Source: Chloroflexota bacterium (lineage in GTDB: Bacteria; Chloroflexota; Dormibacteria; CF-121). From it: a DNA stretch of 51,516 nt. The notes under the pieces were generated by a model, which saw nothing but the letters and a program-made list of their open reading frames with translations, had not been told where the DNA came from and made no database searches. Every line of letters begins with the position of its first letter. The stretch's first letter is position 1. Shown here piece by piece: positions 2,276 through 28,023 of the stretch. The position numbers and the translations under genes were made by a program. The DNA lies in assembly GCA_005881425.1 (NCBI GenBank), contig VBIC01000081.1:1-51516 (forward strand). The letters run 5' to 3'.

Positions 2276-2623
2276 CTACTCTTCGTCATCCTCGGCGCCT
2301 TCCAGGGTGAGCATCAGGCCGTCCTGGAGGTCGTAGAGGGCGTCCATCGCCTCTGCGATCCCGAGGTCGTCGGGGGCCCTGGCTCCGAGCGGATGCTCCA
2401 TCTCGGCCGCCAGCTCGTGCACCCGCGAGGACAGTTCAGGGGTGAGCTGGGTCTCCTCGGCGATGTTGAGCAACTCCAGCTCGTCGAGTAGCCCGTCGAT
2501 CTGGCGGATTCGATTCCGGCGGGCATAGCGCTGCTCGCGCTCGAGATGCCATCGCTCACGGAGCGCAGAAATCTGGACCGAGGTCTGCTCGATCATCTTC
2601 CCCGTTCCGGACGCCCTGGTCAT
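2276..2623 (-). CDS. Small helical protein of unknown function
   Basis: A 115-residue protein that I do not recognise. It looks almost wholly helical, with charged Arg/Glu-rich segments (LREREQRYARRNRIRQIDG-like region near residues 23-45) and an acidic C-terminal tail ending EGAEDDEE. It has no signal peptide or membrane span. It is divergent from the biotin ligase gene with only 11 nt between the annotated starts. An internal ATG at 2596 (MIEQTSVQ) is an alternative start that would leave more room for promoters. It converges with the thiolase, 32 nt away. Confidence 0.6.
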   Translation of the reverse strand: MTRASGTGKMIEQTSVQISALRERWHLEREQRYARRNRIRQIDGLLDELELLNIAEETQLTPELSSRVHELAAEMEHPLGARAPDDLGIAEAMDALYDLQDGLMLTLEGAEDDEE

Positions 2624-2634
2624 AGCTGTGCCGA

Positions 2635-3465
2635 GTGATTACTGTACTTTCAAAGCCGCAATTGGTCAAGGAGATCGAGTTCAGACCGCTCGACGTGGAG
2701 GCGGTGAAGGCCCGGCTCGAGGCTTCGGCCATCCCCTGGTCGATCCGCCACCTGGCCGAGTGTTCGAGCACCCAGGACCTGGCCGAGGAGGCGGCCCTTG
2801 GCGGCCACGGCCCGGGCCTGGTGGTGAGCACCGATTTCCAGCGCACGGGCCGCGGGCGCCGGGGCGGAACCTGGACCGCGCGGCCGGGGAGCTCCCTCCT
2901 GGTCTCGATCCTTCTGCAGCCGCCGCCCGCGCTGCTGCCCCTCACCCCCCTGCTGGCAGGCATCGCCGTGGTCCAGGGGATCGAGTCCAGCTGCGGGCTC
3001 AGGGCGGAGCTCGAGTGGCCCAACGACGTCATGGCCGGGGGCCGCAAGCTGGCCGGGATCCTGGTCCAGCGCCCGCCCGGGCCCACGGCCGTGGTCGGCA
3101 TCGGGGTCAACGTCAGGGCAGCGCCCTCCGGCCTGGAGGATGGGGCCAGGGCGACCTGCCTCAATAGCGAGCTGGGCCGTACCGTGGCCCGCGAGCCGCT
3201 CCTGGCCGGCATCCTCGAAGCCATCGCCGGAGGGCTGCAGCAGGCCGCCCTGTCCGGTCCTGCCTGGGTGCGCCGGGCCTGGCTGGCGCGCACCTCGATG
3301 ATGGGCCGGCGCCTGGCCTTCGAGGACGGTACAACCGAGCGGGTCGGGACCGCGCAGGACCTGCTGGAGGACGGCGCCCTCGTGGTCCGGCTCGACGACG
3401 GCAGCCCGCTCCGGCTGGTGGCCGGGGCGGTGCGACACGTCAGGACGGACCTGCCTCAGTCGTAG
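2635..3465 (+). CDS. birA: Biotin--[acetyl-CoA carboxylase] ligase
   Basis: A 276-residue biotin protein ligase that activates biotin to biotinyl-AMP and transfers it to the carrier lysine of biotin-dependent carboxylases. The biotinyl-AMP loop appears as GRGRRGGTW (canonical GRGRRGR-like), followed by LEWPNDV, GRKLAGILVQ and VVGIGVNV. It lacks the N-terminal helix-turn-helix of the E. coli protein, so it is probably a monofunctional enzyme rather than a repressor. The GTG at 2635 is used here; a TTG at 2662 (VKEIEFRPL) is a plausible alternative because a TACTTT hexamer lies upstream of it. It fits with the accA/accD genes elsewhere in the window. Confidence 0.92.
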   Translation: MITVLSKPQLVKEIEFRPLDVEAVKARLEASAIPWSIRHLAECSSTQDLAEEAALGGHGPGLVVSTDFQRTGRGRRGGTWTARPGSSLLVSILLQPPPALLPLTPLLAGIAVVQGIESSCGLRAELEWPNDVMAGGRKLAGILVQRPPGPTAVVGIGVNVRAAPSGLEDGARATCLNSELGRTVAREPLLAGILEAIAGGLQQAALSGPAWVRRAWLARTSMMGRRLAFEDGTTERVGTAQDLLEDGALVVRLDDGSPLRLVAGAVRHVRTDLPQS

Positions 3466-4634: not shown

Positions 4635-4750
4635 TTGGTGAAGCCCACGTAGATGACGGCCCACAGGATCGAGGCGGCCAGCATCAGGACTGCGACCACG
4701 AACATCAGTGATCCGAGGCGAACGTTGGCGCGCGCTTCACTTCGTTTCAC
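4631..4750 (-). CDS. 39-residue single-span membrane protein of the oxidase operon
   Basis: A tiny frame starting GTG at 4750 just after a strong AGGAGG site. It reads MKRSEARANVRLG followed by one hydrophobic helix (SLMFVVAVLMLAASILWAVI) and a short YVGFTK tail. Size and topology resemble accessory subunits of heme-copper oxidases such as subunit IIa of ba3 oxidases, but I cannot claim homology. It sits between the heme A/heme O synthase fusion and the subunit IV-like gene, overlapping the latter by 4 nt. The good ribosome site and operon position make it a convincing coding gene. Confidence 0.7.
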   Translation of the reverse strand: MKRSEARANVRLGSLMFVVAVLMLAASILWAVIYVGFTK

Positions 4751-25422: not shown

Positions 25423-25451
25423 TGGAGCGCCCGCCCGCTGCAGGCGCTCCA
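25423..25451 (+). terminator. Hairpin after the enolase-UPF0182 gene
   Basis: A 9-bp perfect stem (TGGAGCGCC paired with GGCGCTCCA) with an 11-nt loop, 8 nt after the stop. No T run follows. It can act on either strand and also follows the small minus-strand frame ending at 25472. Confidence 0.5.
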
Positions 25452-25471
25452 TCGAAGCCCCCCGGAACCAT

Positions 25472-25552
25472 CTAACGAGGGCCCGGCCAGATGTCAGCTA
25501 CGGCCAGGACGGCGGCGACGACGCTTGCGATGAGCGCGACGAATCGATACAC
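25472..25552 (-). CDS. 26-residue hydrophobic microORF
   Basis: GTG at 25552 follows a strong ribosome site (AAAAGGAGGG) and reads MYRFVALIASVVAAVLAVAD, ending IWPGPR. One short membrane helix is predicted by eye. The coding strand has a perfect -35 TTGACA at 25625-25620 and a TAACGT hexamer 18 nt later, so promoter, leader and ribosome site are all in place. I recognise no family. The rest of the 25415-25708 interval holds the terminator hairpin and the divergent promoter region. Confidence 0.5.
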   Translation of the reverse strand: MYRFVALIASVVAAVLAVADIWPGPR

Positions 25553-25595
25553 GGCACCCTCCTTTTCAGAACGGGTGCCAGCCCTCGCGGGTCAG

Positions 25596-25625
25596 ACGTT
25601 AGCACCCGCTGTCAGTTGCTGTCAA
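25596..25625 (-). promoter_or_regulatory. Promoter of the 26-residue microORF
   Basis: Consensus TTGACA (25620-25625, minus strand), an 18-nt spacer and TAACGT (25596-25601). A leader of roughly 35-40 nt follows and contains a GC-rich inverted repeat (CGGGTGC ... GCACCCG) just before the ribosome site. Confidence 0.5.
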
Positions 25626-25655
25626 TATACTTTCCGCAACCGAGGTGAGTAAAGC

Positions 25656-25661
25656 TATACT
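25656..25661 (+). promoter_or_regulatory. Putative -10 for the XRE-TPR gene
   Basis: TATACT, about 47 nt before ATG 25709. It is divergent from the microORF promoter, so the two units share a regulatory region of about 100 nt. Confidence 0.35.
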
Positions 25662-25708: not shown

Positions 25709-27019
25709 ATGGGGGCGGCCTTGAATTCGGTCGGCGAGCGTATCCGGGAGGCACGCCAGGCCCGCGGGCTCACCCAGGCCCAGCTGGCCCGGGGGATCGT
25801 GACCAAGGGCTTCATCTGCCAGGTGGAGCGCAACCGGGCCATGCCCTCGCTGCCGAAGCTTCAGATCATCGCCGACCGGCTGGGGCTGGCCCTGGACGAC
25901 CTGGTCGGCGAGCACCGTTCGACCGACCTCACCTATCTGGCCAAGAGCGCCGAGCTGGCCGTCAAGGCCGGAGAGCCGGCCCGCGCGGTCGAGCTGGCCG
26001 AGGAGGCCGTCAGCCTGGCCACGTCAGCCTCGGAGCGGGCCAACCTGCACCGGATTCGCGGCACCGCCCTGGACGCCATGGGCGAGGCGGATTCCGCGCT
26101 CAAGGCCTACCAGACGGCGGCCGCCACCGCGCCGCCGGACGACCTCGAGCTCAACGCCGCGATCTGGGTCGAAATCGGGACCGTGCTGGAGCTGCGAGAA
26201 CGGTTCAACGCGGCCATCGAGGCCAATCTCCGCGCGCTCGAGTGGCTGGACCGGTGCCGTCATGCCGAGCCGGCGTTGCGGCCGCGCGTCCTGGTCAACC
26301 TGAGCCGGGTGGAGTCGACGCTGGGGCAGGCCGACCGAGCGATGGAGCACGCCCAGCTGGCCCTCATGGCTGCGACCGATTCGGAAAGCCTCTTCCGCAT
26401 CGCCAACGCACACATGGCGCTCGGCATCCTGGCCCGAGAAGCCGGGCAGCTCGAGCGCGCGGTCGAGCATTGCAACCGCGCCCTCGACCTGCATCGCCGG
26501 ATCGGGCACGAGCAGATCGCCAACCGGATCCTGAACAACCTGGGCGACGTGCATTTCGCCGCCGGCCGGGTCGAGGAAGCGACCGACTATCAGACGCGCT
26601 GCCTCTTACGGGCCCGGCAGATACACGACAGCATGGCGGTGGCGGTAACCGCGGCAGAGCTGGCCCGGTACGCTCTCCTGGAAGGAGACTTCCAATCGGC
26701 CCTGCCCTACGCTCGCGAGGGTAGAGAGGCGGCCCACGCCGTCGAGGACCACGTTCGCGAGGCGGTGGCCGGCGCCTACGAAGCCCGCGCCCTCTTCGGC
26801 CTGGGCCGGCACAAGCTGGCGGAGCGCCTCTTCAGGCGGTCGCTGCGCCAGCTCGACCAGCGTGAGGCGCTGGCCAAGCTGGCTCACGTCTGCTCCCTCT
26901 ACAGCGAGGTGCTGCGCCAGCGCGGCGAGGTGGACCGGGCCTTCGCGTTTCTGCGGATGGCCTCGGAGCGGGACTTCAAACAGCTCCCCGGCCTGGTGGG
27001 TGTGCCCAGGGGCGAATGA
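25709..27019 (+). CDS. XRE-family regulator with TPR repeats
   Basis: A 436-residue protein with an N-terminal Cro/XRE helix-turn-helix (GERIREARQARGLTQAQLAR to about residue 65) and a long TPR array to the C terminus (for example AERANLHRIRGTALDAMGE-type units, NNLGDVHFAAGRVEEATDYQ and EARALFGLGRHKLAERLF). HTH-TPR proteins of this type often sense a peptide or partner protein through the TPRs. No obvious peptide gene is adjacent except the divergent 26-residue frame. Its stop overlaps the start of the receiver/HD-GYP gene by 4 nt, so the two are coupled. TTG 25721 is an alternative start. Confidence 0.85.
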   Translation: MGAALNSVGERIREARQARGLTQAQLARGIVTKGFICQVERNRAMPSLPKLQIIADRLGLALDDLVGEHRSTDLTYLAKSAELAVKAGEPARAVELAEEAVSLATSASERANLHRIRGTALDAMGEADSALKAYQTAAATAPPDDLELNAAIWVEIGTVLELRERFNAAIEANLRALEWLDRCRHAEPALRPRVLVNLSRVESTLGQADRAMEHAQLALMAATDSESLFRIANAHMALGILAREAGQLERAVEHCNRALDLHRRIGHEQIANRILNNLGDVHFAAGRVEEATDYQTRCLLRARQIHDSMAVAVTAAELARYALLEGDFQSALPYAREGREAAHAVEDHVREAVAGAYEARALFGLGRHKLAERLFRRSLRQLDQREALAKLAHVCSLYSEVLRQRGEVDRAFAFLRMASERDFKQLPGLVGVPRGE

Positions 27020-28023
27020 AAGGACCCCTACCCGAGCCGCCGGCTCACGAGCCGGCAACCGTGCTCGTGGTGAGTGGGGAGTCCGATGCGGAGGGAATTC
27101 GGAACGCGGCCGGCGCTGCCGGCCTGGCCTCGCTCCTGGCCCCTGACGGCGCGACCGCCCTGCGGCTGTTGCCGGCTCGATCGATCGACCTGATCCTCTG
27201 CGAGGCCAGCCTTCCCGACATGGACGGCACCGAGCTCTGCCGGGCGATCAAGCAGGCTCGCGCCACAGGCACCATTCCCGTCATCCTGATGCTGGAGGAG
27301 GACGATCTGCGGGGGCAGGAGCGTGCCCGGGCGGCGGGCGCCGACGATGTCGCCTTCAAGCCGCTGCAGCGGGGAGCCATCGCCGCGCTGATCGGCGCCC
27401 GAATCGAGGTCCGGCGGCTGCGGCGGCGGCTCACCGAGCTCGAGGGCGTGGTGGTCTCGTTGTCCCGGGCTCTGGACGATCGGACCCCGGTCACCGGCGG
27501 CCAGGCGGAGCGGATCGCGCACTGGGCCACCCAGCTGGGGTCCGCCGTCGGCCTGGGCGAAGGCGACCTGACCTCCCTATACAAGGCGGCTCTCCTCCAC
27601 GATCTCGGCATGGTCATCGTCCCCGACAGCATCCTGGCCAAGCCCGGTCCGCTGGACGAGGGTGAGTTCAGCCAGGTGATGCAGCACGCCGAGGCGGGAG
27701 AGCGGCTGCTTCAGGCGATCCCCGAAGCGGACAGCGTCCTCCCGGCGGTCCGCCATCACCACGAGCGCGTCGACGGATCGGGCTACCCCGACGGCCTGGC
27801 GGGCGACCGGATCCCGCTCTTCGCCAGGATCGTGGCCGTGGCAGACGCCTTCGTGGCTCTGACCAGCCAGCGCCCGTACCGCCAGCGGCGGTCAGCCAAG
27901 GGCGCCCTCCAGGTGCTCCGGCAGGGCGCCGGCCAGCAGTGGGACGCGTCCCTGGTGGACCGCTTCGGCCGGGTCCTCGAGGAAGCCGAACCCCGCCCGT
28001 CCGAGCTCGAGAGCGCCGGCTAG
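27016..28023 (+). CDS. Degenerate receiver fused to HD-GYP domain
   Basis: A 335-residue protein. Residues about 14-130 have the receiver fold, but the phospho-acceptor position is E63 (LCEASLPDMDG) and the acidic pair after the first strand is replaced by S-G in VLVVSGES; K115 is kept. The HD-GYP domain follows, with H195-D196 (LLHDLG), HHHE at 247-250 and GYP at 256-258 in DGSGYPDGL. The lysine normally after HDxG is methionine. HD-GYP enzymes degrade cyclic di-GMP; the receiver is probably not phosphorylated. It is coupled to the XRE-TPR gene and converges on the cox cluster with a 4-nt overlap. Confidence 0.88.
   Translation: MKGPLPEPPAHEPATVLVVSGESDAEGIRNAAGAAGLASLLAPDGATALRLLPARSIDLILCEASLPDMDGTELCRAIKQARATGTIPVILMLEEDDLRGQERARAAGADDVAFKPLQRGAIAALIGARIEVRRLRRRLTELEGVVVSLSRALDDRTPVTGGQAERIAHWATQLGSAVGLGEGDLTSLYKAALLHDLGMVIVPDSILAKPGPLDEGEFSQVMQHAEAGERLLQAIPEADSVLPAVRHHHERVDGSGYPDGLAGDRIPLFARIVAVADAFVALTSQRPYRQRRSAKGALQVLRQGAGQQWDASLVDRFGRVLEEAEPRPSELESAG

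Follow-up and report, generated by a model that had tools for sequence, protein, structure and literature searches.

A 26-codon gene divergent from an XRE-TPR regulator in a Chloroflexota bacterium: a probable peptide-pheromone precursor beside its probable receptor

Introduction

What is the role of a 26-codon, mostly hydrophobic reading frame that lies back to back with the gene for a putative DNA-binding TPR protein, in a bacterium of the phylum Chloroflexota (Dormibacteria; CF-121)? The question arises from a 51,516-nucleotide stretch of contig VBIC01000081.1 (“the window” throughout, always at its full length), for which a preliminary description offered three options for the peptide: a signal, a toxin-like peptide, or a membrane regulator. 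Comparison with related loci supports the first and does not favour the other two, because the hydrophobic part of the peptide resembles a leader, and the part that varies between clades is a short polar C-terminal tail. The interpretation argued for here, to which we give roughly three chances in four, is that the two genes would form an RRNPP-like circuit: the microORF would specify a short pheromone in precursor form, which the divergent XRE-TPR protein would sense in the cytoplasm and answer as a regulator.

A conserved reading frame with the shape of a secretion precursor

The microORF (25472..25552, minus strand; GTG...TAG, 26 codons) encodes MYRFVALIASVVAAVLAVADIWPGPR, and proved to be real from start to stop as first described. 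A divergent peptide ORF of 26-28 residues is found in each of the 15 orthologous loci whose upstream DNA is complete (the window and 14 relatives); conservation of the frame beside XRE-TPR genes in relatives had been suggested as a check, and the frame is kept in every copy. The aligned copies give the consensus MYRxxALIAxVVAAVLAVADxxPGGx. In 13 of the 15 copies (two of other length were dropped), pN/pS is 0.49 in frame, against 1.15 and 1.77 when the alternative frames are read, and none of 200 column shuffles gave so low an in-frame value. Differences number 514, 354, and 844 at codon positions 1, 2, and 3, so that most variation is at the third. By these measures the microORF is under purifying selection.

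The layout of the peptide is an Arg near the start, an uncharged hydrophobic core, A-V-A (also SVA or TTA), and then D or E, followed by about six further residues, commonly xxPGx ending in a basic one. Judged by eye, the basic N-end, the hydrophobic core, and [AST]-x-A before D/E are present in 17 of 17 aligned peptides, and the polar tail is likewise kept in all of them. The whole resembles a Sec precursor at its smallest, which would yield a product of seven residues; the putative cleavage site divides it into a leader, MYRFVALIASVVAAVLAVA, and a predicted mature tail, DIWPGPR. Two ORFs in the entire window satisfy a strict “short Sec precursor” rule, the microORF being one. Two paralogs at 52% have cousin peptides, ending AEIWPGWK and ADIMPGWK. 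A separate small ORF with a Shine-Dalgarno sequence, at position 4750 of the window (minus strand, 39 codons; MKRSEARANVRLGSLMFVVAVLMLAASILWAVIYVGFTK), resembles a single-pass membrane protein.

Could the peptide itself be a small, uncleaved membrane protein, or a type I toxin-like peptide, under control of the XRE-TPR protein? Type I toxin-antitoxin peptides are uncleaved, membrane-inserting toxins with an antisense RNA; the mostly hydrophobic character of the 26 residues would suit such a role, as would the structured leader of the transcript. It is nevertheless very unlikely, given the small-x-A motif before D/E and the polar tail in 17/17 aligned peptides, and given counterparts of about 80 residues that are extended after the leader, as well as seven with repeated WPN cores (both described below).

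Promoter, leader, and terminator of the peptide gene

The expression signals proposed for the microORF hold up, with one qualification. The ribosome-binding site before the GTG was located at 25557-25566 (minus strand; AAAAGGAGGG), and its final GGG falls within a hairpin stem. The -35 element (25620..25625, minus strand) is a consensus TTGACA as claimed, and that hexamer is unique in the 51.5-kb window, both strands considered; 14 of the 15 copies have TTGACA and one TTGACT. The -10, described as acceptable, is weak here: the candidates at 25596..25602 (minus strand) are CTAACG, 17 nt from the -35, and TAACGT, at 18 nt and with 3 of 6 matches by our own count. Ten of the 15 copies have TTAAAT instead, spaced 17 nt from the -35 in eight, 18 in one, and 16 in one, and the window copy is among the five without it. 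A promoter scanner passed over the TTGACA promoter and chose an overlapping TTTACT-18-TATATT just upstream.

Downstream, a terminator scan places a terminator-like hairpin at 25423..25451 (minus strand), closing the peptide transcript; with a Shine-Dalgarno sequence before the ORF and this hairpin after it, a monocistronic transcript of less than 200 nt would be made. Just 3' of the stop codon (25460..25467, minus strand), TTCCGGGG is present in all 15 copies; with 4 matches in the window and 3.6 expected it is not rare there, and its interest therefore lies in its conservation alone.

The inverted repeat noticed in the leader, GGCACCC/GGGTGCC, is also real, and covaries. It forms a hairpin around the ribosome-binding site (25553..25579, minus strand; arms 25573-25579 and 25553-25559). 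Across the 15 copies 95.8% of cells pair, with six cells changed on both sides, counts that are inflated by relatedness and by derivation from the same sequences; slid versions of the hairpin pair in 34-59% of cells. Pairing, both-side-changed cells, and covariation score were each reached by 0 of 500 shuffles. Two of five measures do not exceed the shuffles: pairs with double changes (2, reached by 46/500) and pair types (reached by 499/500). The lowest-energy fold differs in one of four copies (L014). The hairpin probably holds translation of the peptide low.

Is the conserved element then mainly a regulatory RNA, with the reading frame incidental? The covarying hairpin and the invariant presence of TTCCGGGG (15/15) are what such an RNA might be expected to leave behind, and the preliminary description had reserved this conclusion for a leader conserved without its frame. 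What is found is a frame kept in 15/15 copies and a hairpin conserved as well, which makes the choice between peptide and leader RNA a false one. In-frame purifying selection, the conserved start, stop, and Shine-Dalgarno sequence, the narrow length range (26-28), and the counterparts adjoining more distant receptors make an incidental frame barely credible, and the intergenic region has no match to a known regulatory RNA in Rfam at E up to 1.

The XRE-TPR protein

The regulator gene (25709..27019, plus strand, or from TTG 25721 by homology) encodes a protein of 436 aa, or 432 from the TTG, with HTH_3 and TPR_12 domains; the divergent layout noted at the outset holds in all 15 loci. A structural model built with 16 sequences has a mean pLDDT of 87, with a less confident N-terminal HTH (about 50-75) followed by about nine helical hairpins (helical pairs 72-424). 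Among solved structures, animal LGN matches best, through its TPR domain (Z 32). The bacterial matches, RapI (Z 27.2, rmsd 4.1 over 344), a Rap with its peptide (Z 26.6), and NprR (Z 25.4, rmsd 4.3 over 342), span nearly the entire repeat region. Engineered TPRs and LGN lead the sequence search, which also gave one Rap TPR match and a resemblance of the HTH to PlcR (E 2.6e-6) and ComR. With LGN best by structure and engineered TPRs best by sequence, neither comparison singles out RRNPP: the predicted fold suits a peptide-binding TPR groove, and is no proof of RRNPP descent.

Other affiliations were considered. PADLOC gave only partial HTH or TPR matches, and a known defence system was rejected; the PHROGs matches, to phage regulators and an unnamed family, were partial too. 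Plasmid carriage was likewise rejected: the receptor has matches in 15 plasmid records, none extending over 80% of its length, and the eight listed are TPR or CHAT-domain proteins at 22-28% identity. Among the NCBIfam matches listed, none reaches its cut-off.

Distribution in the family

XRE-TPR orthologs were found in 15 of the 17 other same-family genomes searched, at 56-60% identity in 14 of them; the fifteenth, in G016, is split into two pieces, at 60 and 49%. Both partners are present in 16 of the 18 same-family genomes, and neither in G001 and G007 (82% complete). A peptide model run against 110 genomes of the class scored strongly at 18 places (E 5e-12 or better): 17 of these adjoin a receptor that had itself been retrieved by searching, and the eighteenth is a G016 copy with a cut receptor start. 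Because 17 of these 18 sequences had gone into the model, what the search adds is the hit in G016, together with the lack of strong copies standing alone. A further five hits were weak (E 0.009 to 0.043) and left uncounted; among them, a WPNP-type peptide in G012 adjoins a receptor (L074).

G016 has two copies of the locus (G016:C299 and G016:C409; L279 and L280), each cut by a contig end: one retains the receptor and the intergenic site, the peptide lying beyond the contig end, and the other the peptide, the site, and the first receptor codons. Reading the G016:C409 receptor and the G016:C299 peptide as a single locus split between contigs was rejected, as these are two different copies. The genome is listed at 6% contamination, and the two copies represent either a second strain or a true duplication.

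The genome from which the window comes has a second pair, a receptor (L033) with MRRFLISLAMSIALAVLAVGAAAADGIPAPWAPVGP upstream. It also has, at L176, a short Sec-like ORF (MRRFGLALLLATIGMLSTAAIALADYIGPHVPTS, at about 2276, minus strand) lying back to back with a gene that by eye resembles a BTAD-type regulator (2492-3265, plus strand), so that the pairing may extend to other regulators.

A candidate operator and the HD-GYP neighbour

Between the two divergent genes lies a 17-bp near-palindrome, GTATAG-N5-CTAAAC, which is perfect in the paralogous locus L024 (GTTTAG-N5-CTAAAC); GTWTAG-N5-CTAAAC occurs in 11 of the 15 aligned copies. The candidate operator in the window (GTATAGCTTTACTCACC; putatively 25644..25660, minus strand) has a degenerate right half. 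It is centred about 62 bp ahead of the predicted start site of the peptide transcript, and about -62 is a usual position for activators. It overlaps TATACT (25656..25661, plus strand), the likely -10 of the XRE-TPR promoter, whose -35 is poor.

Is this site part of a wider regulon? All 18 family genomes were searched for the exact pattern, which occurs in 12 of the 16 carriers. Ten have a single match, at the peptide-receptor locus; G003 has another at the paralogous locus, and G016 has it at both copies. The window's own genome, G002, G004, and G008 have degenerate sites and no exact match, and G001 and G007, being without the system, have none either. The reversed pattern, used as a control, matches only in G008, once per strand. 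With exact sites confined to the peptide-receptor locus or its copies, the circuit appears to be local, bearing in mind that the genomes are incomplete.

The next gene after the receptor, in 15 of 15 ortholog loci, encodes a receiver-like plus HD-GYP protein (27016..28023, plus strand, overlapping the XRE-TPR stop); it was not found in the available DNA downstream of the two paralogs. HHER[VI]DG[AS]GYP is kept in all 15 orthologs, and on the strength of its domain the protein is a predicted cyclic-di-GMP phosphodiesterase, and the putative output of the circuit. The receiver domain has Glu at the usual phospho-Asp place (CEASLPDMDG, by eye); at this place the 14 readable orthologs of 15 have Glu (7), Asp (6), or Gln (1), so the domain may not be a phosphorylated receiver.

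The same design across the class and the phylum

Does the pairing recur beside other XRE-TPR genes? In the class, 124 distinct genes or pieces were assembled, 118 of them with an N-terminus and 400 bp of upstream DNA. Under the strict precursor rule, which was written after the first loci had been seen and was shaped on them, 73 of the 118 have a microORF within 400 bp upstream, compared with 0/112 far-upstream windows, 1/109 downstream windows, and 1/2360 dinucleotide shuffles (Fisher P 2e-41 for the upstream enrichment, related loci not being independent). These 73 loci hold 68 different peptides. The rule was then frozen and applied to 73 genes or pieces sampled elsewhere in the phylum, from among the matches listed: nine have a precursor, compared with 0/68 and 0/71 in the two comparison sets (0/139 jointly; Fisher P 5e-5). 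The other 64 have none under the rule, including every receptor of family f19, for which neither the rule nor conservation clustering gave a convincing precursor.

Among the 45 class receptors without a microORF under the strict rule, seven have longer precursors and at least four pass a looser rule (L139, L146, L152, L166). The misses are not random, 22 of the 25 genes of one clade having no precursor within 400 bp. XRE-TPR genes of the clade of L019, L020, L022, L076, L082, and relatives, likewise without a nearby precursor, follow an ORF with a prephenate dehydratase-like C-terminus (by eye), and their products may be orphan receptors.

The tails differ by clade (WPNP, IGPTP, TGPG, xxCC, xxPGx), and some have no more than 5-9 residues. 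Mapped onto a tree of 113 receptors, the tail types require 17 changes, where shuffled labels require 70 on average; five types are each confined to one side of one branch; the labels follow our own motif rules, and the tree is a quick FastTree one with several long branches flagged. The seven longer, Sec-like precursors, beside class receptors that fail the rule, have repeated WPN cores (L118-L143; those of L143, for example, are EIWPNG, DIIWPNA, and DVIWPNG), and their clade adjoins the single-copy WPNP clade on the receptor tree. They surfaced by conservation clustering of short ORFs with the motif unused, a procedure that mostly yielded apparent shadow frames of flanking genes. Some counterparts reach about 80 residues, the added stretch lying behind the leader. 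In another phylum family, f32, divergent Sec-like precursors (L201, L211, L241, and L248) have repeated DPG, DPW, or DPI motifs: L248 has two copies of VDPGYPQ, and L211 two of EDPW. At two loci the precursor start is 5-6 bp from the first base of the receptor stop codon. A CC pair is present in 19 of the 73 precursor tails (such as GGVAPCCS; loci such as L115, L117, and L145), and might form a disulfide or be modified.

These tails bear on where the product acts. An exported and cleaved peptide could do its work outside the cell, as an antimicrobial, a matrix component, or the ligand of a surface sensor, with the XRE-TPR protein regulating no more than its production: leader and cleavage site are silent on where the tail acts, and CC in 19/73 tails would suit a disulfide peptide. 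The adjoining TPR receptor, with whose clade the tail types shift, argues for a destination inside, as does the brevity of tails of 5-9 residues, and the repeated cores are like the tandem pheromones of Phr precursors described in PMC11343458. Extracellular action is thus considered unlikely, and a pheromone sensed by the XRE-TPR protein is the reading carried forward.

Comparison with known systems

A published survey describes RRNPP systems by a propeptide of 10-100 aa, Sec secretion (by SignalP), a receptor of 250-500 aa, TPRs, and adjacent genes (PMC10075063). Four of these five features are found here: a propeptide of 26 aa (26-28 in orthologs), a receptor of 436 aa (432 from TTG 25721), TPRs (TPR_12 at E 1.5e-24, and helical pairs in the model), and divergent neighbours in 15/15 loci. 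The fifth, Sec secretion, fits by peptide shape, judged by eye. The scope given for that survey is Firmicutes and viruses (PMC10075063), and an RRNPPA study is framed as describing Firmicutes (PMC9765709); no RRNPP-like system in Chloroflexota was found in the open-licence literature, by titles and abstract openings. With four of the five features present and no Chloroflexota precedent found, the system is filed as one that works like RRNPP in another phylum, membership by descent not being implied.

Which known systems come closest? PlcR-PapR and NprR-NprX, of the Bacillus cereus group, similarly pair a short precursor exported by Sec with an adjacent receptor of 250-500 aa that combines an XRE HTH and TPRs. 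Their precursor genes are downstream of the receptor, and the pheromone is the precursor C-terminus (that of PapR resembles ADLPFEF); here the phylum is another, the precursor is divergent and has 26 residues, and the partner is an HD-GYP protein. The sequence search brought out no relation beyond the HTH and generic TPRs; the structural model aligns to NprR over 342 residues. Rgg-SHP of Streptococcus likewise places a short hydrophobic peptide gene beside an HTH regulator, in a divergent layout and with a C-terminal pheromone. SHPs are described as using PptAB rather than Sec (PMC10075063). Unlike Rgg-SHP, the present system has a small-x-A, signal peptidase-type site and a receptor with canonical TPR matches.

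Rap proteins are not known to have a DNA-binding HTH, and the fold of RapI matches the receptor model. Among Rap-Phr precursors, Phr3T and Phr105 are reported to have repeated or pseudo-repeated pheromones (PMC11343458). These tandem pheromones resemble the repeats of L118-L143; unlike them, the repeats here belong to another clade, and are absent from the window's own peptide. Many peptide-receptor pairs per species are described for Paenibacillus (AloR; PMC7425212); these are Firmicutes systems, and the likeness to the class repertoire is by description, in the many pairs per species.

A proposed circuit and its significance

We infer secretion, import, binding, and regulation from sequence, as follows. 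Sec export and cleavage after AVA would release DIWPGPR, which would be re-imported (Opp-type binding proteins are encoded, the oligopeptide-binding family PF00496 having 7 matches on 6 contigs of the genome) and would bind the TPR groove. Peptide binding would shift binding of the XRE domain at the single near-palindromic site between both genes; this operator would control the peptide promoter from about -62, and would also overlap the -10 from which the receptor itself is transcribed. Translation of the peptide would be restrained by the hairpin at its ribosome-binding site. The switch would alter expression of the HD-GYP protein, the circuit probably acting through the HD-GYP gene that overlaps the receptor.

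A broader proposal, which we regard as evenly balanced, is that Chloroflexota hold a large undescribed pheromone repertoire of XRE-TPR proteins with tiny Sec precursors, divergent, upstream, or downstream, and with single or repeated cores; in the family considered here, one locus would be controlled, with cyclic-di-GMP affected via HD-GYP. Their origin may be separate from that of the Firmicutes RRNPP family.

The case also illustrates that comparison can bring a gene of 26 codons to light. Chloroflexota are mostly uncultured, and the analysis supplies named candidate signals for them, for example DIWPGPR, DSLPGPR, and EVWPNP. If the receptor-peptide pairs are what they appear to be, one candidate signal would be linked to cyclic-di-GMP control, another bacterial group would be added to those thought to communicate by short peptides, and the strategy itself would be wider than thought or would have evolved more than once.
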